IMG/VR virus record: IMGVR_UViG_3300033148_003500
Location: 1-27,875 of that record
Strand: one strand, 5' to 3'
Length of the DNA: 27,875 nt
Source: a virus
A program made the position numbers and the translations under genes. Positions 3,801 to 26,577 of the stretch are shown here, piece by piece (positions within the stretch are counted from its first letter, which is position 1; each line of letters begins with the position of its first letter). The notes beneath the pieces were generated by a model that was given only the letters and a program-made list of their open reading frames with translations, searched no databases and was not told the DNA's origin.

Positions 3801-4063
3801 GCATAGTAAGATCCGCTGGCCCAATATTTATATATGATGCTATAATCAGTATTATCATCAAGCACAATTGAGGTATCAACATTGGTAGTGAAGATAGTGG
3901 TTGAATCGTCCTGACCTGTAGCCATATCAATATAGGTTAGAATCTGCACCGAATCCCATTGCGTATCAAACCGCAGGACCTTGTTATAGTTTGCTGCCCG
4001 CGCATCACTATAGAATGTCAAGGGCAGCAATAAGAGGGTCAGTATTGTAGTTATGAATTTCAT
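836..4063 (-). CDS. Large repeat-containing fibre-like protein with Sec signal peptide (1075 aa)
   Basis: The N-terminus (MKFITTILTLLLLPLTFYSD, then ARA before the mature part) reads as a cleavable Sec signal peptide with cleavage near residue 23. Residues about 160-850 consist of three repeat families: an AIEDSVHANAADYKATGF type (about 214-262, 264-290, 463-510, 511-558, 561-590), an ADMGAIIDSLMRR type (363-402, 403-444, 682-722, 726-770, partial 831-850) and a TIDIDGQTI type (160-180, 180-216, 287-323). The last 200 residues look like one or two Ig-like or carboxypeptidase-regulatory beta domains, with a tail-fibre-like end (IPESGNVDLTDSLAAR). AGGAG lies 6 nt before ATG 4063. Position between the tail hub and endolysin suggests a fibre or adhesin; an export signal on such a gene is unusual. 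Function is inferred. Confidence 0.75.
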   Translation of the reverse strand: MKFITTILTLLLLPLTFYSDARAANYNKVLRFDTQWDSVQILTYIDMATGQDDSTTIFTTNVDTSIVLDDNTDYSIIYKYWASGSYYAATETILHNRLKPTTAGRTLDVLATGEAGVDLDNTSGDLAAADFEASSLDGKGDWSTHSAANVWAAAARTLTELDEDNTTIDLNGTEVYRLVQFDEDFTTIDIDGQTIAVATTATNLTNNNDKTGYSLTTAERAAIEDSVHGNAADYKATGFSTHNADAVWAVGIRALTDKANFALSTTAYNTIKDSVWRNTDDYRWLTSLDEDTTTIDIDGQTIATVTTATNLSNNNDKTGYTLTVNDMQIAAGHAADSVWNADTASHNGTANSFGILFDASVSSAGGSATISDADMGAIIDSLMRRIVADTITGSWAGRVLSEAASGGAGISDDAMGDIIDSLMRRVVADTISGSWVGRVLSYAAGASTFDVATDSTLPDISKMIASGLLAAIEDTVHANAADYKATGFSTHAAADVWSVATRALTDKAGFGLSTAERAAIEDSVHANAADYKADVSGLSTFDPTTDSTLPDISSLVDNGFCSVIEDSIHANAADYKATGFSTFAAATDSVIVDVSAASVEDGLLAKQADSIQAVALKINADNTSGSFDAADFEANVWLATHFHSNVGEEFAAATWAEDLSTYSTQYTAGSIVYDSIDAKVSSAGATATIADADMAAIVDSIMRRAASDTVTASWTAAVIRKSDSAASGATATIADADMGAIIDSLMRRAAGDTISGSWVGLMLSLADAGSTFDPSVTGDSLDINDAVADALATWGKSGFSLTSTEWEEVWRNIDTNNVDSSDIGVWIGNAASGSATISDADKKDIAQYVKDTATAYPSIFYGPTATGGGLYSVTVYAVDTSGTDAVVPAVSIAAQTTDGIPLAGPLVANNQGNVTFMLDAGVTRFISRLGASYQFDTLSATITGNEDSLAVLGYNVVIDPPAGGASYATVYASLYKPNGTADSGIVVKGWLMPDINVTASTPGYTITPYAIWDTTDASGYWSIDLMRSDQYDDTTKGWYHIEGTKGRNRRKVFVIDSLRIPESGNVDLTDSLAAR
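1514..3586 (-). repeat. Intragenic protein-repeat region of the 1075-aa fibre-like protein
   Basis: The coding sequence here contains at least thirteen diverged copies of three short protein repeats. They are interleaved rather than in one tandem run: a TIDIDGQTI type, an EDSVHANAADYKATGF type and a DADMGAIIDSLMRR type. At DNA level the recurring plus-strand words include tataatcggccgc and gtcgataat/gtcaatgat variants. Such modular arrays suit elongated fibre shafts and can change length by recombination. Confidence 0.8.
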
Positions 4064-4073
4064 TTCATACTCC

Positions 4074-6698: not shown

Positions 6699-7267
6699 CA
6701 TCGCCTCGTTATTGAAGTAACGCGGGGCTTGGAAGTTGCCGCTGGAGTATATGAAATCACTACCCACAGTTGAGTGCACCGATTATTCCCACTGCCATTA
6801 TGCAGCCCCCCCGCTTCCCATGAGATCCCGTTGACTTCAGCAACCGTCCAGTCCCCACCACCAGGTTTACTTATAGCCTCTGAATATTCAACATAGCTGG
6901 TTGTCAGCGACTGAGCCGATCCGTCGTTGTCAGTAGAAGAGAATCGCAAGAACGGTGTGAATGCTGGCGACCCTAGCGCACCGGACTTCTTACTAATATA
7001 ATGTACTGTAACTGATATGTCGGTAGCTCCAGAAGGCACTGCCGGAGTTGTTGGGAACGTGCAGGAGAAACGGTTGGCGCTCTCTGAATAAATATAAGTT
7101 CCATCATCATCACTAGTAGCTTCATCAATCATGGCCCATTGATCTGTGCCAGTGCTGACGATCCAATTCCCGTCATAATTCCCCTCGGCGCTGGGACGTC
7201 GTGTCACCGAGTCAGCCCACACCATACAGGGCAGCAGAAACAATATCGCCAATAGCCACTTAATCAT
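6698..7267 (-). CDS. Secreted beta-sandwich protein of the fibre cluster (189 aa)
   Basis: MIKWLLAILFLLPCMVWA is a clear Sec signal peptide; cleavage is expected after residue 18, before DSVTRRP. The mature part is all-beta in appearance: a conserved-looking Asp/Tyr stretch (SDDDGTYIYSES), a strand-rich centre, a TSYVEYSEAI segment, and GGGDWTVAEVNGISWEAGG followed by CTQLWVVISYTP. This layout is familiar from small beta-sandwich proteins of metagenomic phages, but I cannot name a family. ATG 7267 overlaps the upstream stop by 8 nt and gives a proper signal peptide; a TTG at 7288 would add seven residues. The LLPC sequence is not a valid lipobox because Pro precedes Cys. Probably a fibre or surface accessory protein, from context. 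Confidence 0.7.
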   Translation of the reverse strand: MIKWLLAILFLLPCMVWADSVTRRPSAEGNYDGNWIVSTGTDQWAMIDEATSDDDGTYIYSESANRFSCTFPTTPAVPSGATDISVTVHYISKKSGALGSPAFTPFLRFSSTDNDGSAQSLTTSYVEYSEAISKPGGGDWTVAEVNGISWEAGGLHNGSGNNRCTQLWVVISYTPAATSKPRVTSITRR

Positions 7268-9212
7268 AAGTATATCCCACGTCCACAATTACCTCCGTAA
7301 TATCCGCATCCGGATCAGAATAGATCAAAACGTAAATAGCCTTACCCGCCGCAATGGTCGCATCATCAAAACTCGTAACCTCAGCCGTCCCGGATGTTGA
7401 CGTGATAGTACAGATAGTATCAGCGTTGGCTCTTGTCGTCCTGTCATCGGCAAACATGAGCCGCCAATCTAACTCCGTTGTCGGGTCCGCATCACAAGCC
7501 ACCTTAACCGTATCAATTGTCAGCGCGTAATCGGTTTCGATCCAAATACCGCAAACAGAGTCATCGTCAAACCATGCGTTAGGATAAGACACGACTCGAC
7601 CTATCCAATGATGCTTCTGTCGAGCCGAGAGCGAGGAGTCAGCAATCGCACCAGCAGCAGTAGCTAATTGAGTTGTGGCAACAATATGGGCAGCACTCAT
7701 GCTGTCGGCGGATATTTCACCGACCGCATGAAGGTTGTCCTCAATTACCACGGCAGTATCGGCTTTGATTGCTATATATTCCTTGCCTCCGGCAACTCGC
7801 GCATATATGATAGCGGTATCAACGCGATCTGTACCGTCTCGTAAGTATTGCCCCCAATCCGGATAAAAGCTATAATTGCGTGGCTCCGCGCTATCGCTGG
7901 CTAACACGAGGCAAGCGTCAGATGTATCGTAATACAATGCGCCGTCCTCTTGCAACCCTGCGTCCTTGAGGGGGATTTTCAACAACAAGGCAGCCCTAAC
8001 ACTATCAACATCAATCAGACCTGGCAGGGCGCTATTCGGCACAGCACTATAATTCACAAGCGAATCTGGAATACAGTCAGCCGGGCCAGTGACGTCAACC
8101 CCGATGTCGATATGGTCGGTGGCCAGGCTATCAGCGGTAACAGATCCAGACGCTTCAATGTGTCCCGTAACATATACGTCGGTATCACTCTGCCAACGTT
8201 CTTGGGCTTCATTGTAGAACCAGTCCCACAAATCACCAGCGGCATCGGTGGCTCGGATTCCCGCATCGCTACCAGAGGAATCAGCATTCAAGACAACCCA
8301 TTCTCCGGCCATGAGGGCTTTGTAACTATAAAAATCGATACCCGACAGATAGAGATATTTGTTTATGTCGTCGGCTTTGAGTTCATAGATGGTTGAGTCT
8401 CGGGCTATAAATTCAATGCCACATACTCTGTCCAAGGCCTGATAGTTGCAAGCGAAATCCCAAGTTGACCAGACCGGGTTCAATGAATCCAGGTTGCCAT
8501 CATAGCCATCAACCTGAGAAAAGATATCTGGCGTGACGCTATATTGACCATCGGAGTAGGTAATACCCCAGCCAGCTTCATCGGCACCACGCGAGGCCCT
8601 TGTTTCCCAGCTTAACACACCGGAGCCGTTAGTTTTCAATACAGCATCAGCCGCCCCATCACTCTGTGGAAAGCAGTAGTTTCCAGAAATTTGCAAGCGA
8701 TAGATATTCGTCGTATCATTAGGATCATTGCTAAAAATAGAATCGGCATAGATCGTAACCTTAACGCTGTCATTCGATGCGTTCCGCAATGGGCGACCAA
8801 TCAGACTCGAATCTGTAGTACGCCGCCATTGCCATAGGCTGTCAGTGCTCAACATCAGATTGGCCAAGGTGTCATCGATATTAGTCCACAGGCCAGCCGT
8901 AACACCAAAGCGGCCCTCTGCATTTGCAATTGAATCAAGTAGGGCGCTATCAAGCAGATTGGCAGGGTCCGACTTGAAATAGAATCCAGTTGCCGGATCA
9001 AATACTAAGGTATCATTGCTGGCGTTAAAGAACATCAATACGTTGCCGTCACGATTCATTACCGTATCGGTATCTTGCCGCCATTCGGGTAGTACTATCG
9101 GAGCGGGCTGGGCCAGCACGTCATCATAACAAACAATCAACAGCGCCGCAATGACTATGATTATAATCAGCAACAACGCATTGATCGCCTGTTTGTTTTT
9201 GACTGTATTCAT
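7260..9212 (-). CDS. Fibre-like protein with N-terminal signal/anchor (650 aa)
   Basis: The protein starts with a basic stretch (MNTVKNKQ), a very hydrophobic core (ALLLIIIIVIAALLIVC) and a signal-peptidase-like site, VLA before QPAP (about residue 34). It is either exported or membrane-anchored. The rest resembles tail-fibre sequence: low complexity, rich in Asp, Ser and Thr, with fibre-type phrases (LKTNGSGVLSWET at about 185-200 and TGHIEASGSVTADSLATDHI further on). The last 110 residues form a probable beta-sandwich ending EVIVDVGYTYD. ATG 9212 has GGAG 8 nt upstream and follows the stop of the 85-aa gene by 2 nt. It is the first of four consecutive genes with export-type N-termini. No enzyme motif was found. 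Confidence 0.72.
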   Translation of the reverse strand: MNTVKNKQAINALLLIIIIVIAALLIVCYDDVLAQPAPIVLPEWRQDTDTVMNRDGNVLMFFNASNDTLVFDPATGFYFKSDPANLLDSALLDSIANAEGRFGVTAGLWTNIDDTLANLMLSTDSLWQWRRTTDSSLIGRPLRNASNDSVKVTIYADSIFSNDPNDTTNIYRLQISGNYCFPQSDGAADAVLKTNGSGVLSWETRASRGADEAGWGITYSDGQYSVTPDIFSQVDGYDGNLDSLNPVWSTWDFACNYQALDRVCGIEFIARDSTIYELKADDINKYLYLSGIDFYSYKALMAGEWVVLNADSSGSDAGIRATDAAGDLWDWFYNEAQERWQSDTDVYVTGHIEASGSVTADSLATDHIDIGVDVTGPADCIPDSLVNYSAVPNSALPGLIDVDSVRAALLLKIPLKDAGLQEDGALYYDTSDACLVLASDSAEPRNYSFYPDWGQYLRDGTDRVDTAIIYARVAGGKEYIAIKADTAVVIEDNLHAVGEISADSMSAAHIVATTQLATAAGAIADSSLSARQKHHWIGRVVSYPNAWFDDDSVCGIWIETDYALTIDTVKVACDADPTTELDWRLMFADDRTTRANADTICTITSTSGTAEVTSFDDATIAAGKAIYVLIYSDPDADITEVIVDVGYTYD

Positions 9213-9214
9213 AG

Positions 9215-9472
9215 CTATTGCTCCAATTTTGATCGGATCGCTTTCAACTCGTCCTTGATCTCGGCTATGTCGCTCTGGATATAAATCATTCGCTCTTCTA
9301 ATCGGATCGCCGTCTTGTCGGTCGAGTCAGTCTTGATAGAAAGCGTCTTGATATCCTGAGCGTTCTGAGCGATGTCGCCAGTCGTCGTGGCCCATACCAG
9401 CCCTATCATCCCCACCAAAGCAAGGATCAACCCGCCGACGATCCACATCCAGAATTTACCATTATCATTCAC
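9215..9472 (-). CDS. Membrane-anchored coiled-coil protein, spanin or holin-accessory candidate (85 aa)
   Basis: After NDNGKF there is one transmembrane helix (about residues 8-29), then a hydrophilic heptad-like region to the end (DIAQNAQDIKTLSIKTD ... SDIAEIKDELKAIRSKLEQ) that reads as a coiled coil. This is the plan of inner-membrane spanins and of some XhlA-like lysis proteins; those act in the envelope during lysis. It sits away from the holin and hydrolase, at the head of the signal-peptide gene cluster, so a role in anchoring or exporting those proteins is also possible. The start is GTG 9472, with AGGAG 8 nt upstream. No outer-membrane spanin partner was found in the window. Confidence 0.62.
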   Translation of the reverse strand: MNDNGKFWMWIVGGLILALVGMIGLVWATTTGDIAQNAQDIKTLSIKTDSTDKTAIRLEERMIYIQSDIAEIKDELKAIRSKLEQ

Positions 9473-9483
9473 AATACTTGCTC

Positions 9484-11862
9484 CTATGTCGAAAGCTGTA
9501 CCGCCGTGACCTGAGTATATACGTCAGGAGCGCAGCCATGCCGTAATTCTGTAATCATGAAATGAGTGTTCTCCCAAGTATCGCCATATATCTTGAGGTG
9601 CGGGTCGCATGATTCGTGATCGAACGTAATGTGATCGCCAACCTCAAGATCGGTATTCGTGAATCCAAGGGCTGTGAACTTAACATAGTTATGCGGCCGG
9701 GACCAAAGACCTTCCCCCCAACCCTCATCAGTTTGAGCCAGATCAGGATCGCCAACAAGCATCCGGCCAATATAGGCCGCGCCCTGCCATGGCGGGATAT
9801 CAGTTGGGTTATATCTGGCCGATATGTTTGGCCAATGAACCTCGGCAGCAATGATTCCATAAAGTGCTTGTGACTCCACATCATTCAATTGGAACTGTAC
9901 GCGATAAATATCCTTTTCCTGGTGATAGCGACAATTGACAACAAGCCGGTTGGCATATATGGGTGTTTTGCCTATAGTGATATCACCATCCTTGATATGG
10001 GTGAAGTGAATTGTGCGGCTAGTCGTTGCCGACAACCAACCGGCGTGTAATAGATTGATACAACGAGCCACACCGCGCGCATCCCATTGAAATGCAAAAG
10101 TTGATTGCTCCGACAGTTGTTGAATTGTCTGGTTGATTGTTAAGTTATTATCGCTATGGAGTTGGATATGTACCGGATGCTTACAATACAAACCATCTGG
10201 TCCCAGCGATATTACCACATCGTAACATTCATCAAATCTATTGGTATCGATAGGTGGGGCTATGTCGGCATAATTGCGTAGAATATCCTCTATAATCCCG
10301 GCTGATGATACGATGACATCACCGGGGCCATGATGAGGCAAAGATAAATTATTCCATCGAGATGATGGACTTTCAATCCACGAGCCATAGAGACGCCCTT
10401 CTGCCGCTGCATAACAAATAGTGGGTTGCTCGGGTGGAGATAATAAAATGCGAGCCTGGAATTCATATGCCCGCCATACAAGCTGATTCTCAGGGATATC
10501 ATCGCCAGCTGCAATGACGACCACCCATAATAACATAGCCGGAGAATAGTACTCGCCATTGTCAGGATCTACCTCAAAAGCATTCTGCCCTTGAATGATA
10601 CACCATTCCCACGATGTTTGATCCCATGCTACGTCCCCAAAGCGGCCCTGCTGTCCGATGTATCCGGTTGCCGTGCCATCCGTCCCAAAATATAAAGTTG
10701 CTAGGGGTGATACTCCTACATCTCCAGACACATCTTGATGGGCATTATATATCCCCGCTTGCATATATCTATTAGAACCTGGCGCAGCCAACAATGTCTT
10801 TCTGAACAATACATCCTGTGCAAAATAGAATGGTGCCCAACCGAAAACATTTCCTCCGAAATCCTCGCCGTCATAAATACGCAGATAGGTATTTAACAAT
10901 CCATCAGTTGCACTATCGGCTGATGTGACACGATAATTTTTGACCGGCGCACCTGAGTATGCAGGCCAGACATCACCTTCGGCATAAGCAATTAAGGGGA
11001 AATACGCATATCCATAGCCTGCGCTTGTATCAACAACAACAGGCCCAACCACCGTCCCGCTGCTTGTTTCATTGATAGCAGGAATAGGGCAGTCATTGAG
11101 AGAAAGATATACCGACCCGACAGAGTTGATTGCTGTATTAGCTATGACATAACTAAAGAACCCATCTATCGTTTTATAAGCTATTGCTTTAGCTAATCCA
11201 TTCCCCGCGAATGGATCGTCCCGGTCCCCCAATGAATTGCCTGCAAAATAGTTGTCTCGGTTAAAATTCTCATTCCAGATGCCCCATAACTCCGGCACAA
11301 ATTCTCCTTTATTATCCGTAGGTACTTCAGCTGCGGGCAGATCCTCTATTTTATCCGTCAATATTGTATGGTTATATGCCTTACCCCACGATGAGGCCTT
11401 GATTGTGATCGTTGCGGGCGTGATTTGTATATCCGTAATTGGACCAGAGAACTTTAGGAGCCATGTAGTAACACTCACCGAGGCAAATTCGCCAACCGCC
11501 AAATATATGTCGACACTGTTGGCGTGCTCCCAAATATTGCCGTCAGCGTTGACAACCTGGTCGAGTGGTTTGACCATAGTATTTGATACTATATCTGCGA
11601 CGGATATATTCATCAATTTAATGGTTGTTGAGGGGAATGAAAGCCGTCGCGTCTCCCAATCAAGTCGTTCTGTAAATGGACTAATTGACTTTAGTACCGG
11701 TTGCAATTGTCCCGCATTTAGACCACCACCAGCAAGGGACCGAAATGCAAAATTGCTCGCATAGAACGATTCGGCAGTAGGCGTATTAACCCTCACAATA
11801 CAGCCACCAGTAGATACTACGCTATCTTTGGCCACTTCATATACTGTATTCAATTCCCGCAC
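9484..11862 (-). CDS. Tail hub / tip attachment protein (792 aa)
   Basis: The protein has the layout of siphovirus tail hub (Tal or gp27-like) proteins, which close the end of the tail tube and carry fibres. An N-terminal beta region (about 60-170) contains LLKFSGPITDIQITPATITI, the usual strand pattern before the hub barrel. The C-terminal third contains FQWDARGVARCINLL, the IKDGDITIGKTPIYANRLVV segment, and LEVGDHITFDHESCDPHLKI near the end. The middle (about 210-500) is an insertion rich in aromatic residues that may be a carbohydrate-binding or jelly-roll domain. GTG 11862 overlaps the upstream stop as TAGTG with GGAG 10 nt upstream. It lies after the tape measure and distal tail genes, as expected. 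No lysozyme motif is visible. Confidence 0.7.
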   Translation of the reverse strand: MRELNTVYEVAKDSVVSTGGCIVRVNTPTAESFYASNFAFRSLAGGGLNAGQLQPVLKSISPFTERLDWETRRLSFPSTTIKLMNISVADIVSNTMVKPLDQVVNADGNIWEHANSVDIYLAVGEFASVSVTTWLLKFSGPITDIQITPATITIKASSWGKAYNHTILTDKIEDLPAAEVPTDNKGEFVPELWGIWNENFNRDNYFAGNSLGDRDDPFAGNGLAKAIAYKTIDGFFSYVIANTAINSVGSVYLSLNDCPIPAINETSSGTVVGPVVVDTSAGYGYAYFPLIAYAEGDVWPAYSGAPVKNYRVTSADSATDGLLNTYLRIYDGEDFGGNVFGWAPFYFAQDVLFRKTLLAAPGSNRYMQAGIYNAHQDVSGDVGVSPLATLYFGTDGTATGYIGQQGRFGDVAWDQTSWEWCIIQGQNAFEVDPDNGEYYSPAMLLWVVVIAAGDDIPENQLVWRAYEFQARILLSPPEQPTICYAAAEGRLYGSWIESPSSRWNNLSLPHHGPGDVIVSSAGIIEDILRNYADIAPPIDTNRFDECYDVVISLGPDGLYCKHPVHIQLHSDNNLTINQTIQQLSEQSTFAFQWDARGVARCINLLHAGWLSATTSRTIHFTHIKDGDITIGKTPIYANRLVVNCRYHQEKDIYRVQFQLNDVESQALYGIIAAEVHWPNISARYNPTDIPPWQGAAYIGRMLVGDPDLAQTDEGWGEGLWSRPHNYVKFTALGFTNTDLEVGDHITFDHESCDPHLKIYGDTWENTHFMITELRHGCAPDVYTQVTAVQLST

Positions 11863-12665
11863 TAGTAGTATTCTCCGCTTGGTAGTAACGGCAGACCAGT
11901 CCAGATAACATTCGCGTCATATATCTGATATCCAATCTCAACAATATCAAGCTGGTCGGGGAATCGTACCAGTTTAGAATTGTAATACGCTGACCCCTCT
12001 TGTAATATGCAGGGCTTGAATGCTCCCTGACAATCGGCGTGGGCATTGACGAGCGCATTCTTATTAGTGGTTCCATCAAAAGTATATTTCCGGATGATAT
12101 GATGAGTACTAGTAGTATTATATTGAGTTGTAAATATACGTCCACCTGATCCACGTTGAATGCGAGTATTGAATGTCGGCTTGTCAGCCAAGGGATATTC
12201 AGAATTCTGCGTGATGGTCCACTTCCGGAGGGCCATTACCATGCTGGCTTTGACTGGTGTATTGTGGCCGCTAATGCGGATACGAAAATATTGATGGTTC
12301 TGAGCGAGGGCTTGTCCGAAATCAATGAGCCGCAAGCCATTCAGCGTCCCCGATAAGGGAAAGGGATATGTATCCGGTACAATACTAAACCAAGTGCTAC
12401 CGTTATCACTCCAAAAAACATAGATTGACCCAGTAGTAAAGTCCTCGTAGTTAGTCAGCACAATCAATAACGCTTCTATATTATAATTGAGAACATCATT
12501 TGCATTCCGGATTATGATATCGACCGTGCCAGTAGAATTATACCACCAATATGTTGAGGGATTGAAATCACCAAGATGTTTACCCTCGAAACCTACTTCT
12601 TCACCCGTCACGCTATAGATTGGCGAGCTGCCCATTGCGCCGGGAGTGTATATACTAAACGACAC
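11862..12665 (-). CDS. Distal tail (Dit-position) protein with discoidin-like segment (267 aa)
   Basis: The gene directly follows the tape measure gene, where siphoviruses encode the distal tail protein linking tube and hub. Residues about 20-155 resemble a galactose-binding or discoidin-like beta-sandwich: NPSTYWWYNSTGTVDIIIRN, then IYVFWSDNGSTWFSI and HQYFRIRISGHN. That pattern is common in sugar-binding modules. The C-terminal part (about 165-267) is beta-rich without a known motif. ATG 12665 overlaps the tape measure stop by 11 nt. The role is assigned mostly from position; a minor tail protein that binds the receptor is the alternative. Confidence 0.6.
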   Translation of the reverse strand: MSFSIYTPGAMGSSPIYSVTGEEVGFEGKHLGDFNPSTYWWYNSTGTVDIIIRNANDVLNYNIEALLIVLTNYEDFTTGSIYVFWSDNGSTWFSIVPDTYPFPLSGTLNGLRLIDFGQALAQNHQYFRIRISGHNTPVKASMVMALRKWTITQNSEYPLADKPTFNTRIQRGSGGRIFTTQYNTTSTHHIIRKYTFDGTTNKNALVNAHADCQGAFKPCILQEGSAYYNSKLVRFPDQLDIVEIGYQIYDANVIWTGLPLLPSGEYY

Positions 12666-14900: not shown

Positions 14901-15226
14901 TTTCCCTCCGGCCCACCATCCGGCTGATTGAACTCATAGATGGCATTCTGTAATTCTAAGACAACTTGGAGATCAGCAATCCGCTTCATAACACTCGCCA
15001 TCCCCTCGGTTACGCCATCAATTGATACAATGCACTTAGCCAGAATATCACAAAAGCCGCCCCACTCTTTCAGAATGCCAGTATCTTCATCTGACTCCGG
15101 GACCATGACGCTGAGATCACTTACCAGCCGCATCCATTCAGCTTGATCGAGTCGGCGCAAAACGACGATCCCACCGCCGATCTCCACCTCTTTCGTTTCG
15201 CCCACCTTAATAAGTTCTATTGGCAT
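14810..15226 (-). CDS. Tail assembly chaperone, G-like (138 aa)
   Basis: This is the unshifted product of a two-gene chaperone pair. In lambda-like phages gpG and gpGT bind the tape measure protein during tail assembly and are absent from the virion. The protein begins with a beta-rich part (MPIELIKVGETKEVEIGGGI), continues helical (about 28-98) and ends in a low-complexity tail rich in Ser, Gly, Thr and Glu. That tail is the part replaced when ribosomes shift at 14906-14900. Its place between tail tube and tape measure genes is diagnostic. ATG 15226 forms TAATG with the tube gene stop, with AGAGG 6 nt upstream. Sequence alone would not identify it; context and the frameshift do. Confidence 0.78.
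   Translation of the reverse strand: MPIELIKVGETKEVEIGGGIVVLRRLDQAEWMRLVSDLSVMVPESDEDTGILKEWGGFCDILAKCIVSIDGVTEGMASVMKRIADLQVVLELQNAIYEFNQPDGGPEGNSPSSLDGSSGETQSQTAGTVTTNDEESDA
14900..14906 (-). promoter_or_regulatory. -1 ribosomal frameshift slippery site GGGAAAC
   Basis: Reading the minus strand, the heptamer G GGA AAC is in register with the G-like frame (GGA at 14905-14903, AAC at 14902-14900). It fits the X XXY YYZ rule and differs only in the last base from the lambda G/T site GGGAAAG. It lies inside the overlap where the -1 frame is open, 30 nt after a TGA (14936-14934) in that frame. No other heptamer of this type was seen in the overlap. A downstream stimulatory structure was not established. 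Confidence 0.75.
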
Positions 15227-16242
15227 TAGAATCCTCTCAATATGGCGTTGGCCGTGATAATGGTTACGGGTGAATCAACACCCGCGTTGTCGTCGTACAT
15301 CTTGCCGGTCAATACTAATGACTCCGGCGATTCGTGGTCGTAAGTCGGGGAGGCGATCACTCCATTGAAAGCGATATCGAAATCGTTCTCGTCTGTGCCT
15401 GGTGTAGCATGGCCCCAACCGATCCGCACTTCACGATCGATCCCTTGCTCAGCGTCAGTATCATATAAGGAACGCAGACCACCATTGTCGAGGATGTTCA
15501 AAGTGAACTCACCCGTGAAATTAGTTTGGGCAAACGACTCCGGCTCACCACTATCATAGCCAATCGGGACGATATCATAATGCAACGAGACCTCGAAGCT
15601 GGTCAGGATGCGGTCGATACTGTTATATTGACATATAGCTAGGTCCGAATGATATAGCACATCGTTATCACTGACCGTCCAAGTGCCGGATGGCGTACAG
15701 GTTGTCAAGTTACCTCGGCCTACCAGGGTCGCCTCATACATGACCATTTCCTGATTAGCCATTGTGAACTTGAGATCGGACACAATGCAGTCCTTGAGCT
15801 TGACTGACTTAGAGGCACCCGACGGATGTCGTTCAAAGAATGTCACGTAATACCCAGCACTATTAGTGAAATCAGCTGGCTGCCCGCTGGCCATTGTGAA
15901 GGTAGATCCATATGGGGTTGTACCGCTCTCGGTTACCGTCTGGAAAAAGCACGCCAGCAATAGATCAATTTCATTGATCTTGCATATTCCGGTTATCGTT
16001 ACCTTGGGCATCGATCCCTTGGTATTCTGGATGATGCTTTGAGTAGTCGGACGTCGAGTGCCATGAGTCTTCGGTAACTCGCGGACCTTGACGTCAGACT
16101 CAAAGTTCGTCAATTCGCAGGACAGTTCGGCCCCATTGTTGGCCGTGGTCAAATCTGAGTTATCAGCCTCGGCTGTACCCCACGTGCTTTGTAGGACTAT
16201 GCCGTATCGTAACTCCTGCGCAGCTATGTCAGTAATGGCCAT
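15226..16242 (-). CDS. Major tail tube protein (338 aa)
   Basis: The gene sits upstream of the G/GT chaperones and tape measure, the usual place of the tail tube gene. The product is beta-rich and of suitable length. Its N-terminus MAITDIAAQELRYGIVLQST with WGTAEADNSD follows the common start of tube proteins that give an early 'evtWGT' motif. The mid-section holds MPKVTITGICKINEIDLLLA, and the C-terminus contains SPESLVLTGKMYDDN. Tube subunits polymerise into hexameric rings that form the tail lumen. ATG 16242 overlaps the preceding stop as TAATG. No Ig-like decoration domain is evident at the C-terminus. Confidence 0.82.
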   Translation of the reverse strand: MAITDIAAQELRYGIVLQSTWGTAEADNSDLTTANNGAELSCELTNFESDVKVRELPKTHGTRRPTTQSIIQNTKGSMPKVTITGICKINEIDLLLACFFQTVTESGTTPYGSTFTMASGQPADFTNSAGYYVTFFERHPSGASKSVKLKDCIVSDLKFTMANQEMVMYEATLVGRGNLTTCTPSGTWTVSDNDVLYHSDLAICQYNSIDRILTSFEVSLHYDIVPIGYDSGEPESFAQTNFTGEFTLNILDNGGLRSLYDTDAEQGIDREVRIGWGHATPGTDENDFDIAFNGVIASPTYDHESPESLVLTGKMYDDNAGVDSPVTIITANAILRGF

Positions 16243-17382: not shown

Positions 17383-17864
17383 CGCAGTGGCCTCGTAATG
17401 GCGTTGCGGATTGCCCTGATGGCGACCTTCCCTTTCTTGCGCCAGAGATCAGGTCGCACGGCCCGCTTGGGAATAACAACCCTCGTCGTCGATTTCCTCA
17501 AGTGGATCCCCTTGTAATGGAGGAACCCGCGCATCTTTTTAGTAACTGCGATTGTCGCCCCGGTTTCATGCACGGCAATATACCGTGCTGCTGGGGATGG
17601 GCCTATACGCACCGCCATGCCATCACCTGAAACTTTATGAGTGATACTCTTGCGGGCCAGCCCAGATAGGATACCATAATACTTTGAGGTCCTTTGTGGA
17701 TTACGTACAAAGCCCGGCCCTGAAATCATTTGTTTCCAACCGCCCTCAAGAACAGCACCAGCCCTATTCAACCCACGCCGCAAGTTCGGACCCATCTGGG
17801 CCTTGAACCGCGTTAGCTTGATCGGGTATGGCGGTACCACCTTGATTATAAAGTCCCTAGCCAA
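17379..17864 (-). CDS. Neck / head-tail connector protein, HK97 gp10-like (161 aa)
   Basis: A basic protein with the layout of HK97 gp10-like or virion morphogenesis proteins: an N-terminal helix region, SGPGFVRNPQRTSKYYGILS, SGLARKSITHKV, a strand VRIGPSPAARYIAVHETGA and a basic C-terminal helix (KVAIRAIRNAITRPLR). The 'iG....YI..hE.Ga' motif is typical of the family, which links the neck to the tail. It lies between the head-tail adaptor and the tail terminator. ATG 17864 overlaps the preceding gene by 8 nt. Confidence 0.75.
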   Translation of the reverse strand: MARDFIIKVVPPYPIKLTRFKAQMGPNLRRGLNRAGAVLEGGWKQMISGPGFVRNPQRTSKYYGILSGLARKSITHKVSGDGMAVRIGPSPAARYIAVHETGATIAVTKKMRGFLHYKGIHLRKSTTRVVIPKRAVRPDLWRKKGKVAIRAIRNAITRPLR

Positions 17865-18471
17865 AGCTCGGCCTCTTGAATCGGGCTAGGGTTGCTTTAA
17901 TATCGGCCGGCCATGTACTTAGATCAAATGCCTGAGTCTCCTCGGCGATTGTTCGGCTAGTCATGGCTTCCATATGCTTGACTGATTTAAGCCTGGCCCT
18001 CTGAACCAACTGACAGCATACCATCACCAGGTCTTGATCCATATCGCCAAGATTACTGCCATAGCTGTATGTCACCCGCCAACCGTCCTTGCCCATGTAT
18101 CGGCTGAATATAGCTCCCGCATTGAAATATACCCGATTATGACGAGTATCAACGGTGCGTGGATAACTAGCGGTTGTGGCCTCGTCCCAGCTTTGTGATC
18201 CAGCGTTCCAGTAAGCTATTTCCGACACCGAAATCAACGGCCAATTATGAACACGATATTCACGGCTATCATCACCTGTAAACGTCTCACCTAAATCAGT
18301 CCCCGTCCTGAATAACCGTCCACAATATTTCTGCACACGGGTACTGACCATATTAATAAGCATCTGATAATGATCGCGCTTGATCGTTGCTGACGATGGA
18401 TCATCGGTGCCCATATAGGCCAGATATTCTTCAACTGTTATCAGGCTGTCGGCGGCTGGTTCAATCGGCAT
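17857..18471 (-). CDS. Head-tail adaptor, gp6/gp15-like (204 aa)
   Basis: The protein opens with LITVEEYLAYMG, has a helix with INMVSTRVQKYCGRLF, a strand region ETFTGDDSREYRVHNWPLIS followed by VSEIAYW, and a C-terminal helical part (DLVMVCCQLVQRARLKSV). This is the classic order of HK97 gp6 / SPP1 gp15 adaptors that dock under the portal as a ring. It overlaps the upstream stop as TAATG and the gp10-like gene by 8 nt. Length is typical for the family, slightly longer at the C-terminus. Confidence 0.8.
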   Translation of the reverse strand: MPIEPAADSLITVEEYLAYMGTDDPSSATIKRDHYQMLINMVSTRVQKYCGRLFRTGTDLGETFTGDDSREYRVHNWPLISVSEIAYWNAGSQSWDEATTASYPRTVDTRHNRVYFNAGAIFSRYMGKDGWRVTYSYGSNLGDMDQDLVMVCCQLVQRARLKSVKHMEAMTSRTIAEETQAFDLSTWPADIKATLARFKRPSFG

Positions 18472-18893
18472 TACTCGGCATCCTCTATCGCATCAAGAAT
18501 CGCATGGTGAGTTGCTTCGTGAGCCATTAGATACTCGGCGGACTGGACATAACTGCGGCCAAGCCGTTTCTCACCAAAGAACATCCATGGTCCTTTTTTC
18601 TTAATTACACCAGCCCCAATAGCTTTCTGAATCAGGGCCTTAGTATTAGCCTGGAAACCGGGTGCCATGTTCGCTGACGGTTCCAGAGCTTTATTTGCCG
18701 TCGGACCCGATGCCATCTTTTGACCAGCAAAGGCTTCTATCGACAATTCAAAGTTATGAGGGAACGCCGTGCAAAGTTGCGTTGCGACTCCGGGTGCTAT
18801 GTCTTGCACCATACCATCAGTCCACGATTTGATATTCGACTTGGCACTCGGAAGCGTCTGGTATTGCTCCGTCGCATGGAATTTGACTTTCAT
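18471..18893 (-). CDS. Unknown protein in the connector region (140 aa)
   Basis: No family is recognised. It begins MKVKFHATEQYQTLPSAKSN, has a low-complexity Ala/Pro/Ser centre (about 55-85), and ends with helices (YLMAHEATHHAILDAIEDAE). The His/Glu-rich end contains HEATHH, which resembles an HExxH zinc site but has the wrong spacing. ATG 18893 has GGAG 9 nt upstream and makes a 77-nt out-of-frame overlap with the glycosyltransferase C-terminus; a later ATG at 18812 would remove the overlap but lacks a ribosome site. The stop overlaps the adaptor start as TAATG. A neck role is inferred from position. Confidence 0.6.
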   Translation of the reverse strand: MKVKFHATEQYQTLPSAKSNIKSWTDGMVQDIAPGVATQLCTAFPHNFELSIEAFAGQKMASGPTANKALEPSANMAPGFQANTKALIQKAIGAGVIKKKGPWMFFGEKRLGRSYVQSAEYLMAHEATHHAILDAIEDAE

Positions 18894-19854
18894 TGTCCGT
18901 ACTCCGTATCATATCGAGCATTCGTTCTTTACTTTCGGCGAGACCATATCTTTTGATTGCGGTAAAGGCATTGGTTATTACGTGATTGTAGATATCCTCA
19001 TCCCCAACCAGATTTATCAATGCGGCTCGCTGTTGTGCTATATCAAAGCTATCGGTTGTCAATGATGGCCATAGCAGTTCCTGCATATAGATATCTTTTG
19101 TCCCAATCGTCGGCACCCCAAAAATAGCATTCTCCATTTGGATGCGTCCCGCGGCTGGAATGCCGTGATATGAGTCAACCATAACTAACTGCTGCGCCGC
19201 AAACTTGAGATATTCAGAGTAGGGCATTGGCTTTCGCACGATATCGAAAAATCCCGTAAGCCTTACGTCACTTGGCCACGCCACCGCATATGTCCGATAA
19301 CCTATGTCAGTACAGACAATTGATGGCGTAAGCCATTCATTATCATAGCGGTGGATAAATGCGCAGAGGCCGCCCGTGCGGACTTCTGGCGTCATCGCTT
19401 CGGCCAATATGCCATCAATATCAACGGGATGGCTGAGCAGTTGAACAGGTACTTCTTGGCCGAGTAATGTTTTAAGATATCCCACCGCCGAGGGTTCTTG
19501 GCATATAACAAAGTCGGCTTGTCGTAATGCCATCGTCAGGCCAGCAGGATTATAATGCTGCTTCCAAAGCGCCACACTATAATCAACCCCGATTACTAGT
19601 GTCGTCTTCTCTTTGTCAATCTCGGCCCGCACTTTCTGAGCCAGAAAGGTTGTATGATCGTTACTTGATAGGTTGATATAAATAATATCATATTGATTCA
19701 GGTTCCCGCGTACTTCACCATAAGATATCCAATCGCCGCCAAAGGCCTTACTCCAGCAGGCTGAACCTGTCATGCGAACATCATTAGTCTTCAATATCTC
19801 GGCCACGTCGGTGCTGACATGCAAAAACTTAGGTGGTTGAATTTGTAAACTCAT
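18817..19854 (-). CDS. GT-B fold glycosyltransferase (345 aa)
   Basis: The two Rossmann halves of a GT-B enzyme can be read. The N-terminal half contains KFLHVSTDVAEILKTND, QYDIIYINLSS, and ADFVICQEPSAVGYLKTLLG with LLSHPVDID. The C-terminal half holds GGLCAFIHRYDNEWLTPSIV, YSEYLKFAAQQLVMVDSYHG, and the sugar-nucleotide signature AAGRIQMENAIFGVPTIGT with its conserved Glu. Such enzymes transfer a sugar from an activated donor to a protein or glycan. There is no membrane segment. The gene lies between capsid and connector genes, with no clear Shine-Dalgarno before ATG 19854 and a hairpin just upstream. A virion protein is a plausible acceptor, by inference; host surface modification is the main alternative. 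Confidence 0.8.
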   Translation of the reverse strand: MSLQIQPPKFLHVSTDVAEILKTNDVRMTGSACWSKAFGGDWISYGEVRGNLNQYDIIYINLSSNDHTTFLAQKVRAEIDKEKTTLVIGVDYSVALWKQHYNPAGLTMALRQADFVICQEPSAVGYLKTLLGQEVPVQLLSHPVDIDGILAEAMTPEVRTGGLCAFIHRYDNEWLTPSIVCTDIGYRTYAVAWPSDVRLTGFFDIVRKPMPYSEYLKFAAQQLVMVDSYHGIPAAGRIQMENAIFGVPTIGTKDIYMQELLWPSLTTDSFDIAQQRAALINLVGDEDIYNHVITNAFTAIKRYGLAESKERMLDMIRSTDNESQIPCDGAIPDASECQVEYQIVD

Positions 19855-19865
19855 AGCTAATGGCT

Positions 19866-19887
19866 GGGGCGGGAATTAGCCCGCCCC
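19866..19887 (-). terminator. GC-rich hairpin after the capsid block
   Basis: On the minus strand GGGGCGGG, a 6-nt loop (CTAATT) and CCCGCCCC form a perfect 8-bp stem. It sits 9 nt after the stop of the 92-aa gene and just before the glycosyltransferase start. No run of T follows, so it is not a standard intrinsic terminator. It may lower read-through, protect the capsid mRNA 3' end, or be a processing site. Confidence 0.55.
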
Positions 19888-19896
19888 AATCCTTGA

Positions 19897-20175
19897 TTAG
19901 ATCGACGTATCAATCCAAATGAAGAGAAGAGTCGTCGACGTGGTTGTATTGGCAATCGTCACAGTATTGTCCGTGACGGTGGCGGTCGCTAGCCAACTCT
20001 GGGAAGTACTATTATCCGTACCGATACCCCATACGGCCTGAAGTTCATCGCCTTCGGATATCCCCGTCAAGGTGATCGGGGAGTTGCTGGCGTTGCCCTG
20101 TGAGATTCCAAAACGCAACCCACTATACGAACGAGATTGAGTCCCGCCCGTTACGGTTCCAGTTACAGCAGCCAT
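19897..20175 (-). CDS. Ser/Thr-rich small protein, head decoration candidate (92 aa)
   Basis: About one third of the 92 residues are Ser or Thr. The sequence is beta-rich with no signal peptide: AAVTGTVTGGTQSRSYSG at the start, PITLTGISEGDELQAVWGIG in the middle and NTTTSTTLLFIWIDTSI at the end. It directly follows the capsid gene, where decoration or cement proteins are often encoded. AGGAG with AATATATT spacing precedes ATG 20175, a strong ribosome site that suits a structural protein. No family match is recognised. The neighbouring glycosyltransferase makes it a candidate acceptor. Confidence 0.65.
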   Translation of the reverse strand: MAAVTGTVTGGTQSRSYSGLRFGISQGNASNSPITLTGISEGDELQAVWGIGTDNSTSQSWLATATVTDNTVTIANTTTSTTLLFIWIDTSI

Positions 20176-22374: not shown

Positions 22375-24441
22375 TTACTCCTCATCCTCCGCTATTACTG
22401 GCAGTAGGGTACAATAACAGTTTACTACGTTGCGAGCGCTGGCATTCGTATCATTAGGATACATCATAGCCTCGCCGCCAACCATGAATCGTTGATTGAG
22501 CGGAATGGCCTCAACCGTCCCCATCGCTGTATGCCATGCCCGGCTGGTCGGCAGATACGCTGGTAGCCATTTCTTCTTTTCCACCCCAGCTTGGCCATAC
22601 CCCAAAAAGGAACCGCCGTTTATCATCGCCCCGGTCTCAGTCCGGGCAATTACCATCGCCCTGCCTGTACTGAAATCCCCATATAGCTCTTTTAACTTCT
22701 GAGCAGTTAGGTCATAGCCCCAACCCTCAGTATAGGATTCATCGAGCAGTTCTTGAATCCGGGTATACGTCGTTTCGTTAATCCCTACAATTCGCGTAGC
22801 CACTTGGTCTTTCATCAGGCTAACGGCTGGATTGGTAACGTCAAAGGTTAGATCTACTCGGACCTGATTAACGGCTCTACCACCGGCCTCGTTTATGCGG
22901 GCATCAATAAATGGGCTGGCTTTGTCTTTAAGTTTTGCATCCTCACTCTCGGGGTCAAGCAACCCACCGCCTTTGGCCTTGATTGCAATCACCATCTGGA
23001 TATGCGATAAACTATTGCGACCGATCATAAAGGCTTTGAGGGCTTCCTGCGCCCGCTTCTCTTGGCCAAGCCAATATTGGCGCATCAATGTGGCCAGACT
23101 CTTCTCGTGCTGTTGAGCTAAGACATAATGAGCCTGCCAGATATTTTCTTCGGCTGAGCGTGGTTCTGCGAGGCTGCGATCCGCGACCCCGCCATCATCG
23201 GTCCCGGTTAGAGCAACGGCGGTCGGAGTTTCCTTGAACTCATCACCATCATCAACCGGCTCAAGATTGACCATTTCCCTAGCTTCGTTGCGAGTAGCTA
23301 ACTGTCCCTGGTACAGACGGTAGGCTCGTTGAGCCTGCTTGTTACGATCAGGCTGCAATGCCTCGATTTGTGAGTTGTCAGTCTGTATCCGATAATTGTC
23401 ACCATACTTGCGGGCCAACTGGATTGTTAGCGCAGCACAGATCACCCGCTGCCAGGGGATGATCGTATCCTGCCAAAACGAGCGCCTCTGTTCCCTGGCA
23501 GTGGCATAATTAGCGACTTCTACCCCGGCGATCACTGGTGGCACGCCTAAAGCCGATAGCGTGGTATCTCGTGGTATGGTATGCAATGCATCAACCATTA
23601 GATCCTTGAGGGGTGGGGATATCTGAGTATATGTAGTACCATCACCAATGACCGCTATCTGATGAGCATTAGCAGTGCCAGCATAAGCCTTGATCCATTG
23701 CTTTTTGGTTTCGGCTATAACTGATTCATCAACCGACTGTTCAGTCGTCAGTATACCGGTTGGCACGGCGTGCTTCTGAAAGAATGTCGCCAGGTGATTG
23801 CTATAGTATTCGTTCAGAGCCACCTTGGGAGATAGGGCCGTGATCGGTGATTGACCATAGATATCATGGAGAATAGACGGATAGGTTATGTGGATAACCT
23901 GTTCAAGCTCAAGCCGCTTCTCTTTATTACCATAGGTAATAACCCAATGATCCAGATCGCCGGTAGCCTTTGAAACGACCGCTCTTATGATCTGGGGTCG
24001 GCAATGATATAAAGCAAGTATGCCAGGGCTATCGTCGAATACTAGAAAAGCATCACCCGTGAACAGGCTCATTGTCAGCTTCCAGAGTAGAATATCCCAT
24101 GACTCCAATTGATTCGGTCGTTTCAGCAATTCAGCCAGCGGGCCAACTTCTAAATTGATCCAACCTAAATTGCCATCCATCCGCGTTTCCGCTTGAGCCA
24201 CCAACGGCGACGCGGCTACGTTCTGAGCAATTCTGGTCACGCCAACCATTACCCAAGGATCGGTCTGCATAACATTGGCCAGCTTATGGACATTATCTAG
24301 CTTAGGTAGGGGATGGCCTGGCAGTACCGACCCCATATTGTAACCGATAGATGGATTGCCCTTCCAGGCCATCCCCGCCAATCGAGATATGTTGCCCATA
24401 AAGGCGATCATTCTGAGGATCGGATTATTTGTGTCTCTCAC
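22375..24441 (-). CDS. Portal protein fused to a Mu gpF-like head morphogenesis domain (688 aa)
   Basis: The first 420 or so residues match HK97-type portals: WVMVGVTRIAQNVAASPLVA, LTGDAFLVFD-type core (FTGDAFLVFDDSPG), DIYGQSPITALSPKVALNEY, and PRDTTLSALGVPPVIAGVE. Portals form the dodecameric DNA entry ring. From about residue 530 the sequence changes to a MuF pattern: ARTETGAMINGGSFLGYGQA, EKKKWLPAYLPTSRAWHTAM and VVNCYCTLLPV. MuF-like proteins are minor head proteins, and some carry toxin domains; none is seen here. GTG 24441 overlaps the terminase stop as GTGA; an ATG at 24483 would add 14 residues and a longer overlap. The gene ends 2 nt before the protease-capsid gene. Confidence 0.88.
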   Translation of the reverse strand: MRDTNNPILRMIAFMGNISRLAGMAWKGNPSIGYNMGSVLPGHPLPKLDNVHKLANVMQTDPWVMVGVTRIAQNVAASPLVAQAETRMDGNLGWINLEVGPLAELLKRPNQLESWDILLWKLTMSLFTGDAFLVFDDSPGILALYHCRPQIIRAVVSKATGDLDHWVITYGNKEKRLELEQVIHITYPSILHDIYGQSPITALSPKVALNEYYSNHLATFFQKHAVPTGILTTEQSVDESVIAETKKQWIKAYAGTANAHQIAVIGDGTTYTQISPPLKDLMVDALHTIPRDTTLSALGVPPVIAGVEVANYATAREQRRSFWQDTIIPWQRVICAALTIQLARKYGDNYRIQTDNSQIEALQPDRNKQAQRAYRLYQGQLATRNEAREMVNLEPVDDGDEFKETPTAVALTGTDDGGVADRSLAEPRSAEENIWQAHYVLAQQHEKSLATLMRQYWLGQEKRAQEALKAFMIGRNSLSHIQMVIAIKAKGGGLLDPESEDAKLKDKASPFIDARINEAGGRAVNQVRVDLTFDVTNPAVSLMKDQVATRIVGINETTYTRIQELLDESYTEGWGYDLTAQKLKELYGDFSTGRAMVIARTETGAMINGGSFLGYGQAGVEKKKWLPAYLPTSRAWHTAMGTVEAIPLNQRFMVGGEAMMYPNDTNASARNVVNCYCTLLPVIAEDEE

Positions 24442-26099
24442 GATATCAGCGATCCTCTCTGAAACATGGTTCCGGCAAGGCAAGCGTAATTGTCGGCGTG
24501 CTGGTGGTGGTCAGGTAGATTACCCTCGTCCCAGATATACCGAGCCTTGTCCTCGTCATATTTACGGACGGCGGCTGTCATCTGAGGCACAAAATCACCG
24601 TGGTCCAGCGCTTCCCAACCTTTCGGCAATTGAATCGCCCCTTGTGCATAACGGGCATAGGCCGCATCGAGACTGGCTGTGCGATCCACAACAATTCGCC
24701 GCTTCTTGTGGTCCGGAGCACGCTCGACATCGGCTGTACTGCGATTGCTCGTGTATGTACAGGTATACCAACCAGCGTGACGACGGCACCAGTCACGGGC
24801 CGCATGGTGTTCTGGTTCGGCATCAATAACGCCGCGTTTCACGTGAAACATTGCGCAAACTCGCTGTAGTTCATCCCAATCCTTAACCGAGCCAACATAG
24901 ACCTTGCGGGGCACGCTATTGGTGAACTCTTCAATGTGCAGGTGTAATGTAGCCCCAACATCAACCCCGGCATAAGTGCGATCAGCAGCGGCGGGCATGG
25001 TGTAGTCGCTGGCACAGAATGATAATGTGCTCCATGTAAAACTATCACCACTGCCCTTGTATGGTTCGCCAAGGATGTTGTTTGCAAACCGCTGCCTCTG
25101 AGTTGGGTTCCCCTCTGAGGCCACCCAATCTCTGAACATCTGGTAAATGACTGGAATGCCGCGAACATCAGCAAAGAGCTTTGAAATCTTATATCCACGA
25201 GATAGATATACATCAGGCCGGGCAGCGACCCATTGCCCCGGTGTCAATCTATCAAAGAAATCATTACACCGGCGGCACTGTGCGTGAGCATCAGCACCGC
25301 CGCGTGTGAATGGAGGAATACTGCCGATACCAAGATCACCATCCCTTAACAACCATTGACCATCGTTGTCTTGCCTAACAAAATTCTGCTTCCAGGCCAA
25401 TTCTTGTCGTTCGCCGCAATGAGGACATTTAACCAACCAAGTCTGTTGATCTGAATCGGTATATAGCTTGTTGATTCCCATTCCCTGTTGAGTTGGATTA
25501 CCAAACTTGCGCATGATCGGTTGCTCGGCTGCGCCTAGGCGGTCCTCGGCATAGATTAGGTTTTGCTGGTCACAGCGGTCGTACTCGTCGATAAGCAGAG
25601 CGCCAGCCGGAAACTCAAAGAAGTTTGATCGCTGACGAGACCCAACAAACTTCCAGCTGGCATTGAATAGGGTTTTGAGGCCCACACTGTCAGCATAGGC
25701 CTTGCCCCGACCCTGCTTAATACAGTAGAATGGAGATATCTCAAGACCCCGGTCAACTCGATTCTTGACAAAGGTATTGCGCCACTCGTCGGTTGGTAGA
25801 ACATACAGACCATCGATCTTACCGAAGGCCAGAGTCATCATATCACAGAGCGCCCATTCGGTGATCCCTACCTGTGAGGCTTTCTGAACAATGATATTGG
25901 GGGAATTGTCCTGATAGAGAGCAGTCAGCCAGGCGCGGTTAGAACCAAACTCAAGTACGGCCCCAGCCCCCGTTCTGTGGTGCAGATAGCCCATTGCCCA
26001 CCGGGGCCAATCGTGGGCCATCAATGCCACTGCCAGCTTGTCAGCATCGGCTAGCGATAAGTCAGAAGCGTTTGCGGTGCTGTTCAAAAGCGTCGGCAA
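24438..26099 (-). CDS. Large terminase subunit, lambda GpA-like (about 553 aa)
   Basis: This is the ATP-driven packaging motor and nuclease. The ATPase part shows a Walker A-like loop in VQKASQVGITEW and a Walker B in GALLIDEYDRC. A four-Cys zinc-finger-like insert follows (CPHCGERQ ... CRRCN), typical of the GpA family. The C-terminal nuclease includes YAGVDVGATLHLHIEE, GVIDAEPEHHA and DHHQHADNYACL, where acidic residues would hold metal. The start is uncertain: the frame is open to ATG 26216, but that would overlap the small subunit by 155 nt. TTG 26099, with GAGG 5 nt upstream, is my choice; TTG 26087, GTG 30 and ATG 26021 remain possible. Confidence 0.92.
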   Translation of the reverse strand: MPTLLNSTANASDLSLADADKLAVALMAHDWPRWAMGYLHHRTGAGAVLEFGSNRAWLTALYQDNSPNIIVQKASQVGITEWALCDMMTLAFGKIDGLYVLPTDEWRNTFVKNRVDRGLEISPFYCIKQGRGKAYADSVGLKTLFNASWKFVGSRQRSNFFEFPAGALLIDEYDRCDQQNLIYAEDRLGAAEQPIMRKFGNPTQQGMGINKLYTDSDQQTWLVKCPHCGERQELAWKQNFVRQDNDGQWLLRDGDLGIGSIPPFTRGGADAHAQCRRCNDFFDRLTPGQWVAARPDVYLSRGYKISKLFADVRGIPVIYQMFRDWVASEGNPTQRQRFANNILGEPYKGSGDSFTWSTLSFCASDYTMPAAADRTYAGVDVGATLHLHIEEFTNSVPRKVYVGSVKDWDELQRVCAMFHVKRGVIDAEPEHHAARDWCRRHAGWYTCTYTSNRSTADVERAPDHKKRRIVVDRTASLDAAYARYAQGAIQLPKGWEALDHGDFVPQMTAAVRKYDEDKARYIWDEGNLPDHHQHADNYACLAGTMFQRGSLIS

Positions 26100-26577
26100 G
26101 CGAGCCTCGCAATTCTTCCTGGCGCTCGGGTGGCATCTGCTGTATGATGTTGGTAGTGATAAGATTGACATCACCACCAGCACCAGTATTGAGATTGCCG
26201 GAAAGTTCTTCCTCAAGTCGAATCAATCCTATCAGTTCATGGATTTGTGGCACAAAGTCCGGTTGCGTCTGTAGCTTATGTTTGATACGTTTGGCAGCCT
26301 CTGAGGCAATGCCGCGTACGGTCTTGATGTTCTGAATACCCGCCTTGACGATCTGCTGATCCTGGCGTTCCCTGATCTCAATCTGGGCCGCCTTATATCG
26401 CTCAACCCAATCGTCGCGTTTGGCAATTCGGCATATTGTGGTTAGGCTCCGGACAAACTTTTTCGCCGTAGCTGATTTACCGCCCTTATTGACCACACTA
26501 GTCCAGAACTGGTACATTTGCTCAGCTTCTTTTTCAGAAACCCCAGCTCGCGCACCAGCACCAGATCGGCGTTTCAT
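26062..26577 (-). CDS. Small terminase subunit (171 aa)
   Basis: The protein sits just ahead of the large terminase and has the general layout of small subunits: an N-terminal helix-turn-helix-like region (MYQFWTSVVNKGGKSATAKK followed by FVRSLTTICRIAKRDDWVERY), a long helical middle (about 65-135) for oligomerisation, and a C-terminal segment with MPPERQEELRGSLADAFEQH that may contact the large subunit. It recognises viral DNA for packaging. The start ATG 26577 overlaps the 27-aa leader ORF stop as ATGA, which suggests coupled translation. The basic N-terminus MKRRSGAGARAG fits DNA binding. Confidence 0.82.
   Translation of the reverse strand: MKRRSGAGARAGVSEKEAEQMYQFWTSVVNKGGKSATAKKFVRSLTTICRIAKRDDWVERYKAAQIEIRERQDQQIVKAGIQNIKTVRGIASEAAKRIKHKLQTQPDFVPQIHELIGLIRLEEELSGNLNTGAGGDVNLITTNIIQQMPPERQEELRGSLADAFEQHRKRF

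Follow-up and report, generated by a model that had tools for sequence, protein, structure and literature searches.

What does a glycosyltransferase (GT) gene do among the genes that build a virus particle? This question is raised by a virus record of 27,875 bases, here called the window, whose main genes lie on the minus strand. In the direction of transcription, the genes encode the terminase large subunit, the portal, a protease-capsid fusion, a 92-aa protein, the 345-aa enzyme, a 140-aa connector-region protein and the head-tail adaptor, followed by further connector-size genes and a tube-like protein (Table 1). The first-pass annotation had placed a complete GT-B enzyme between a Ser/Thr-rich candidate decoration protein and the connector genes. 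Its coordinates proved exact, and the portal, the capsid fusion, the phrog_442 adaptor and the tube-like protein confirm the surroundings that it described.

Table 1. Features of the virion gene block in the window
Feature	Position	Strand	Evidence
Terminase large subunit	24438..26216	-	PF05876 6.6e-20, phrog_675 3.8e-74
Portal protein with Mu F-like C-terminal part	22375..24483	-	PF04860 6.1e-50, phrog_2662 1.6e-89
Prohead protease-major capsid protein fusion, 717 aa	20219..22372	-	PF04586 3.7e-22, PF05065 2.3e-12
92-aa Ser/Thr-rich decoration-like protein, candidate acceptor	19897..20175	-	aligns with L034 and L036 counterparts
GC-rich hairpin, 10-bp stem, 6-nt loop, no T run	19864..19889	-	folding against shuffles
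GT-B glycosyltransferase, 345 aa	18817..19854	-	ORF, homologues, alignment, model, fold and profile matches
140-aa connector-region protein, RecA C-terminal-like part	18471..18893	-	PF21096 7e-5, below the model's cut-off
Head-tail adaptor	17857..18471	-	phrog_442 4.2e-18
Tail-tube-like protein, alternative candidate acceptor	15226..16242	-	PF18906 5.7e-5 (below cut-off), phrog_290 8.5e-6

Identity of the enzyme

The open reading frame of the enzyme begins with ATG, and its own frame has the best codon-usage score among the six frames. The ATG lies about 10 nt downstream of a strong hairpin, and no clear Shine-Dalgarno sequence was seen ahead of it. At its 3' end the gene overlaps that of the 140-aa protein by 77 nt. 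The last 25 or so residues, which fall in this overlap, were modelled with a pLDDT below 50 for most of positions 321-345. The C-terminal part of the 140-aa protein resembles the RecA C-terminal domain (also TIGR02012, 0.0027), a domain that is odd to find among connector genes. Beyond the tail genes, the window encodes four large proteins (1075, 901, 650 and 792 aa; 836-11862, minus strand), three of which are very rich in Asp (for example, 116 Asp in 1075). These four had no Pfam matches at E 0.1 and are probably tail tip or fibre proteins of unknown type.

No Pfam, NCBIfam or PHROG model gives the enzyme a name. Pfam returned no family at E up to 1, NCBIfam returned a single match (0.13) to sucrose-phosphate synthase, and PHROG returned two weak matches, both of unknown function. 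The GT-B label of the first-pass annotation therefore had no family match to rest on. A structural model and the family profile confirmed the label. An AlphaFold2 model built from eight family members reached a pLDDT of 82.5 and a pTM of 0.82; a single-sequence model was poor (pLDDT 42) and was excluded from the fold searches. The best fold match of the family model was the GT4-type enzyme BshA (2jjm; Z 23.6, rmsd 3.0, 291 residues aligned), which covered residues 7-320 of the window protein at 12% identity. HepE, OtsA, PimA and PglA lay within about 2 Z units of BshA, in a ranking where rows within Z 1 of each other count as ties. Across GT-B enzymes, the fold of two facing Rossmann-like domains was matched with Z 21-24 over about 290-310 residues. 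The family sequence profile matched BshA independently (E 0.0013), with BshA ESFGLVLLEAMACGVPCIG aligned to window PAAGRIQMENAIFGVPTIG.

The window enzyme shares with BshA and other GT4 enzymes of GT-B fold (2jjm, 3mbo, 6n1x) the overall fold, the second Glu of the EX7E motif and a GVPxIG stretch that is in register between the window enzyme and BshA. It differs from them in its low identity (about 12%), in its lack of a Pfam GT model match, and in that its family has a conserved Arg and lacks the first EX7E Glu. The second Glu corresponds to E241 of the window and is Glu in 14 of the 15 viral rows and Asp in the other. The first is absent from all 15, its place being taken by His, Asn or Ser and, in the window only, by Pro. 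Four residues before the second Glu, R237 is conserved in every viral row (15/15). R237 and E241, retained despite about 23-33% identity to relatives, are putative donor-site residues. An HRYD motif (168-171) follows the opening strand of the second domain and could supply a diphosphate-binding Arg, although the L025 group does not conserve it.

The enzyme does not carry the E-x7-E motif of the retaining GT-B family GT4 of CAZy, nor does it reach the cut-off of the Pfam group-1 GT models. When Pfam GT models were compared with eight family members, one reached E 0.01 or better (E 0.0048); the PHROG matches of the eight were no better than 0.001 and of unknown function. Assignment to GT4 was rejected on the EX7E motif, and the enzyme, GT4-like in appearance and failing that motif, is therefore referred to as belonging to an unnamed GT-B family. 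The best viral fold match was BFVD entry A0A1B1IVA4, an unnamed 591-aa viral protein (26% identity, E 5.2e-24) that is perhaps a family member carrying an extra domain.

Relatives of the enzyme and their surroundings

When the GT itself was the query, direct BLAST-type searches of phages, plasmids, IMG/VR and GTDB contigs found no usable relative, and neither did the portal or the capsid as single queries. A scan with a capsid-motif pattern gave zero matches. In 50,697 isolate phage records, tblastn found no relative of the window protein and none of members L022, L027 and L025 at E 0.001. Since the BLAST-type searches had failed, a degenerate DNA pattern was made from the putative donor motif (R, 3 residues, E, x, A, 2 residues, G, x, P, x, I/V, G, 9 residues, L, F/W, P). 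This pattern occurs a single time in the window and in no shuffle out of 100. Scanning IMG/VR with it yielded 15 stretches. Each of them codes for a protein homologous to that of the window, with phmmer E values from 9e-55 to 1.4e-8, and they represent 11 distinct proteins once duplicates are removed. A second scan added three distinct members, for a total of 15 distinct viral rows including the window, all collected by motif scans that proteins without the motif escape. The same pattern hit seven records among GTDB contigs; six were chance out-of-frame matches, and the other was a real distant relative, a protein of an Omnitrophota MAG. In one viral member (L028:3-1505), the GT seems to be joined to the end of a methyltransferase-like domain within a single open frame of 500 aa. 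Searches of open-licence papers, none of them by sequence, gave no description of this enzyme family.

Where do these genes sit? Like the window gene, most are encoded with virion assembly genes: 12 of the 15 distinct members lie in a late virion module, and three lie among DNA-metabolism genes. The virion-module members span at least four capsid/portal backgrounds, namely the related capsids of the window, L034, L036 and L045; the SU10-type L027 and L028; the L025 group; and L020 and L023. The two closest virion-module relatives of the window share its order of capsid, small Ser/Thr-rich protein, hairpin, GT, small gene and adaptor. In L034 (contig of L022), the portal is followed by a 728-aa protease-capsid fusion, an 86-aa protein, the GT, a 79-aa protein and the phrog_442 adaptor; in L036 (contig of L033), the portal is followed by the capsid, an 89-aa protein, the GT, a 117-aa protein and the phrog_442 adaptor. 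Between the window and L034, identity is 34.6% for the GT and 34.8% for the capsid fusion.

The other virion-module settings are looser. In L029/L030, a window-related capsid lies about 3 kb upstream of the GT and connector-size genes lie downstream. In L027 and L028, an SU10-type capsid and portal lie upstream; the call for L028 is based on homology to the portal, capsid and later genes of L027. L025, L019, L026 and L032 have virion genes upstream of the GT and a GT2 gene immediately adjoining it. For these four, the assignment comes from L025, where PHROG models matched a portal and a terminase, and from the homology of the others to L025, with no recognised capsid. In L020 and L023, the GT is found 3.6-3.8 kb past the capsid and shortly ahead of the tape measure, and adjoins a gene whose product weakly matches a major tail protein (0.0023). 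Overall, Pfam portal models matched 4 of the 18 contigs searched and capsid models matched 5 of 18. A formal probability for the position bias was rejected, given that the contigs are fragmentary and that the lineages cannot be counted as independent.

The remaining three members, L035, L037 and L038, are found on contigs of 91-117 kb that gave no Pfam portal or capsid matches. Their GT neighbours resemble DNA methylase, AAA/helicase and exonuclease genes, mostly as judged by eye (in L035, exonuclease phrog_7838, 3.9e-5). On the tree, these three form one group (support 82/95) beside the relatives of the window, as one relocation would give, and most other forks close to the window are poorly resolved.

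Further glycan-related genes were seen on two of these contigs. Directly upstream of the portal, L034:3202-5075 encodes a PglD-like acyltransferase, with hexapeptide repeats at 6.1e-17 and PglD_N at 2.1e-5, together with another GT-B, which is weakly matched. Outside the virion module, the contig of L036 encodes a TET-associated GT (L042:6517-7359, PF20691 1.4e-8) and a GT4 (10950-11951, PF13692 4e-14), and that phage may thus also hypermodify its DNA.

The 92-aa protein and the hairpin

The first-pass annotation described the 92-aa neighbour as one-third Ser/Thr, and the count agrees (31/92, 34%). This protein has no convincing family match in Pfam, PHROG or NCBIfam. It aligns with the 86-aa protein of L034 and the 89-aa protein of L036 (26% identity, 11 invariant columns), in which Ser and Thr make up 29% and 24%, respectively. 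In three decoration-like proteins of GT-free relatives they make up 14-19%, and the 114-aa post-capsid protein of the GT-bearing L027 goes against the trend at 17.5%. This comparison is very small, and the post-capsid proteins of GBK2 and Renna12 (9-10%) were excluded from it as connector-like. Beta-rich coat proteins are frequently rich in Thr and Ser. As a sign of glycosylation, the Ser/Thr content of the 92-aa protein is suggestive at most, and as an argument by itself it was rejected because the sample is too small and L027 is contrary.

Downstream of the 92-aa gene and just ahead of the GT start, the RNA is predicted to form a hairpin with z -3.69, and 0 of 200 shuffles were as stable. 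Hairpins that differ from it in sequence occupy this place in L034 (z -3.15, 3/200 shuffles as stable) and L036 (z -2.18, 5/200). The hairpin of L036 is followed by TCTTTT (UCUUUU in RNA), which resembles an intrinsic terminator. Terminators downstream of capsid genes are common in phages, and one is annotated after the capsid gene of Silence. The hairpin of the window is probably an attenuator or an mRNA-stabilising element. The natural reading is that the head proteins would be strongly expressed and the enzyme more weakly, as would befit a catalyst.

Function and the capsid-to-connector interval

The first-pass annotation also held that phage GTs usually lie away from structural genes, which is too strong in view of several published loci. 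In cluster J mycobacteriophages, 8-10 genes lie between the capsid and the connectors, in exactly the interval of the window GT; they include several GTs, methyltransferases and a kinase, unlike the single GT of the window, and the authors do not decide between viral and host targets (PMC3706429). The 'Gratiaviridae' have a GT near the portal and major capsid protein (MCP), together with a HipA-like kinase and an AAA ATPase, and their authors propose modification of the host capsule (PMC8008677). Cluster O (Corndog-type) phages are reported to glycosylate their capsid and tail tube (PMC11600133, PMC12363180). Virion glycosylation of tailed phages has been reported for few phages, those named being Che8, Corndog and Myrna (PMC12363180). 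In Firecracker (Corndogvirus), an O-methyltransferase, an annotated polypeptide GalNAc-transferase and a GT lie between the portal and the protease (gp35-36 are GTs). Corndog-type phages resemble the window in having GT genes within the head gene block, but these precede the capsid and comprise several GTs with an O-methyltransferase, whereas the window GT follows the capsid. Placement with virion assembly genes is true of the Corndog type and is not required for Che8. A profile of the GT family (A4) had no match in Firecracker and six other phages, records that included no positive control. Given these examples, the kind of setting is already known; the enzyme family is new, being unnamed in the libraries searched.

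The most likely function of the enzyme, and one that we consider moderately probable, is to put sugar on the virus particle. The fold, the conserved residues that resemble a donor site, the gene position and the recurrence beside virion genes are shown, and from them we infer the activity, donor, acceptor and timing of the enzyme. Virion glycosylation is favoured by the repeated occurrence of relatives next to coat genes in viruses that are otherwise unrelated. The gene product would be a GT4-like enzyme of GT-B fold, catalytically active and from a viral family that has no name. Its gene would be transcribed late, along with those of the head, and the hairpin would probably lower its output relative to the capsid and decoration protein. 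Before or during assembly, the enzyme would take a sugar from a nucleotide donor and attach it to Ser/Thr residues of some abundant protein of the virion, either alone or as one step toward a short glycan. The likeliest acceptors would be the 92-aa decoration-like protein or the capsid, with the tail tube next. Virion glycosylation had been put forward in the first-pass annotation from gene position and Ser/Thr content; the positional part is strengthened by the 12 virion-module members and the published precedents, and the Ser/Thr part is weak evidence.

Could the enzyme instead act on the host? A GT whose gene simply sits where the late operon tolerates insertions might, late in infection, modify a host surface glycan (capsule, O-antigen or teichoic acid) and so exclude other phages or keep progeny from binding to debris. 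The 'Gratiaviridae' GT has been read in this way, the authors on cluster J allow for it, and the structural matches include enzymes for small molecules and surface glycans. Nevertheless, this is unlikely: the GT comes after the capsid and decoration genes in an order that is the same in L034 and L036, no predicted membrane or lipid-carrier gene adjoins it in the window (by eye), and so late a change of the host surface would have little time to act. Glycosylation of a modified base in phage DNA, in the manner of the T4 glucosyltransferases, would suit the surroundings of L035, L037 and L038, the TET-associated GT elsewhere on the contig of L036, and a phage DNA alpha-GT among the weaker fold matches (rank 24). 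We regard this as quite improbable in view of the 12 of 15 members in virion modules. In addition, no DNA-modification gene was recognised beside the window GT and no base-modification gene in the 27.9 kb record, although this says little since the window is mainly late region and its early region is absent or not recognised.

A degenerate or non-catalytic GT-B scaffold, kept for another role or decaying, might account for the family-wide loss of the first EX7E Glu, for the Pro of the window where the other 14 rows have His, Asn or Ser, and for the lack of a clear Shine-Dalgarno sequence. Many GT-B enzymes lack a full EX7E, however, and the full-length open frame, typical codon use and retention of R237 and E241 at such low identity make this reading very improbable. 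Virion glycosylation draws its strongest support from members that recur in virion modules with several different capsids and from the gene order that L034 and L036, kin of the window, have kept. What weighs most against it is the subgroup outside virion modules, the loss of the first Glu (Pro in the window) and a substrate that we infer.

The interval between capsid and connectors is also occupied by other glycan genes. A portal-based scan gave nine loci, with such genes in this interval in at least three. The portal relatives L008, L014 and L015 carry them in the slot of the window GT. L008 encodes a GT2-methyltransferase fusion and a protein of 711 aa that matches TOD1/MUCI70 and GT2. Between capsid and adaptor, the closely related L014 and L015 have a five-gene glycan cassette (L014:6764-11078, L015:12725-17113). 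Pfam identifies FkbM methyltransferase, GT11 and GT4 in it, and the other two proteins are GT-A-like as judged by eye. The annotations of GBK2, Roos, Silence, Renna12 and ctLpZ231 show no GT between MCP and adaptor, and the ORF listing of JGon-2020a has a 79-aa connector-type protein after the capsid. As a tentative idea, held with less than even confidence, the capsid-to-connector interval may be an exchangeable virion-glycosylation slot of tailed phages, into which unrelated glycan gene sets swap, with the GT-B family as a dedicated lineage of virion-protein glycosyltransferases. The sets would include this GT-B alone, GT2 with GT-B, GT2/methyltransferase fusions and the five-gene GT11 cassette, and in one lineage the slot would adjoin a dedicated Ser/Thr-rich coat protein. 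Virions would thereby be given heritable glycan types, comparable to bacterial surface-antigen loci.

A GT family that recurs beside capsid genes in a number of unrelated lineages of uncultured phages is a concrete marker for predicting phages with sugar-bearing particles. If virion glycosylation by this enzyme is true, it would provide a testable enzyme-substrate pair and would matter for the use of receptors, the stability of particles and their recognition by the immune system.
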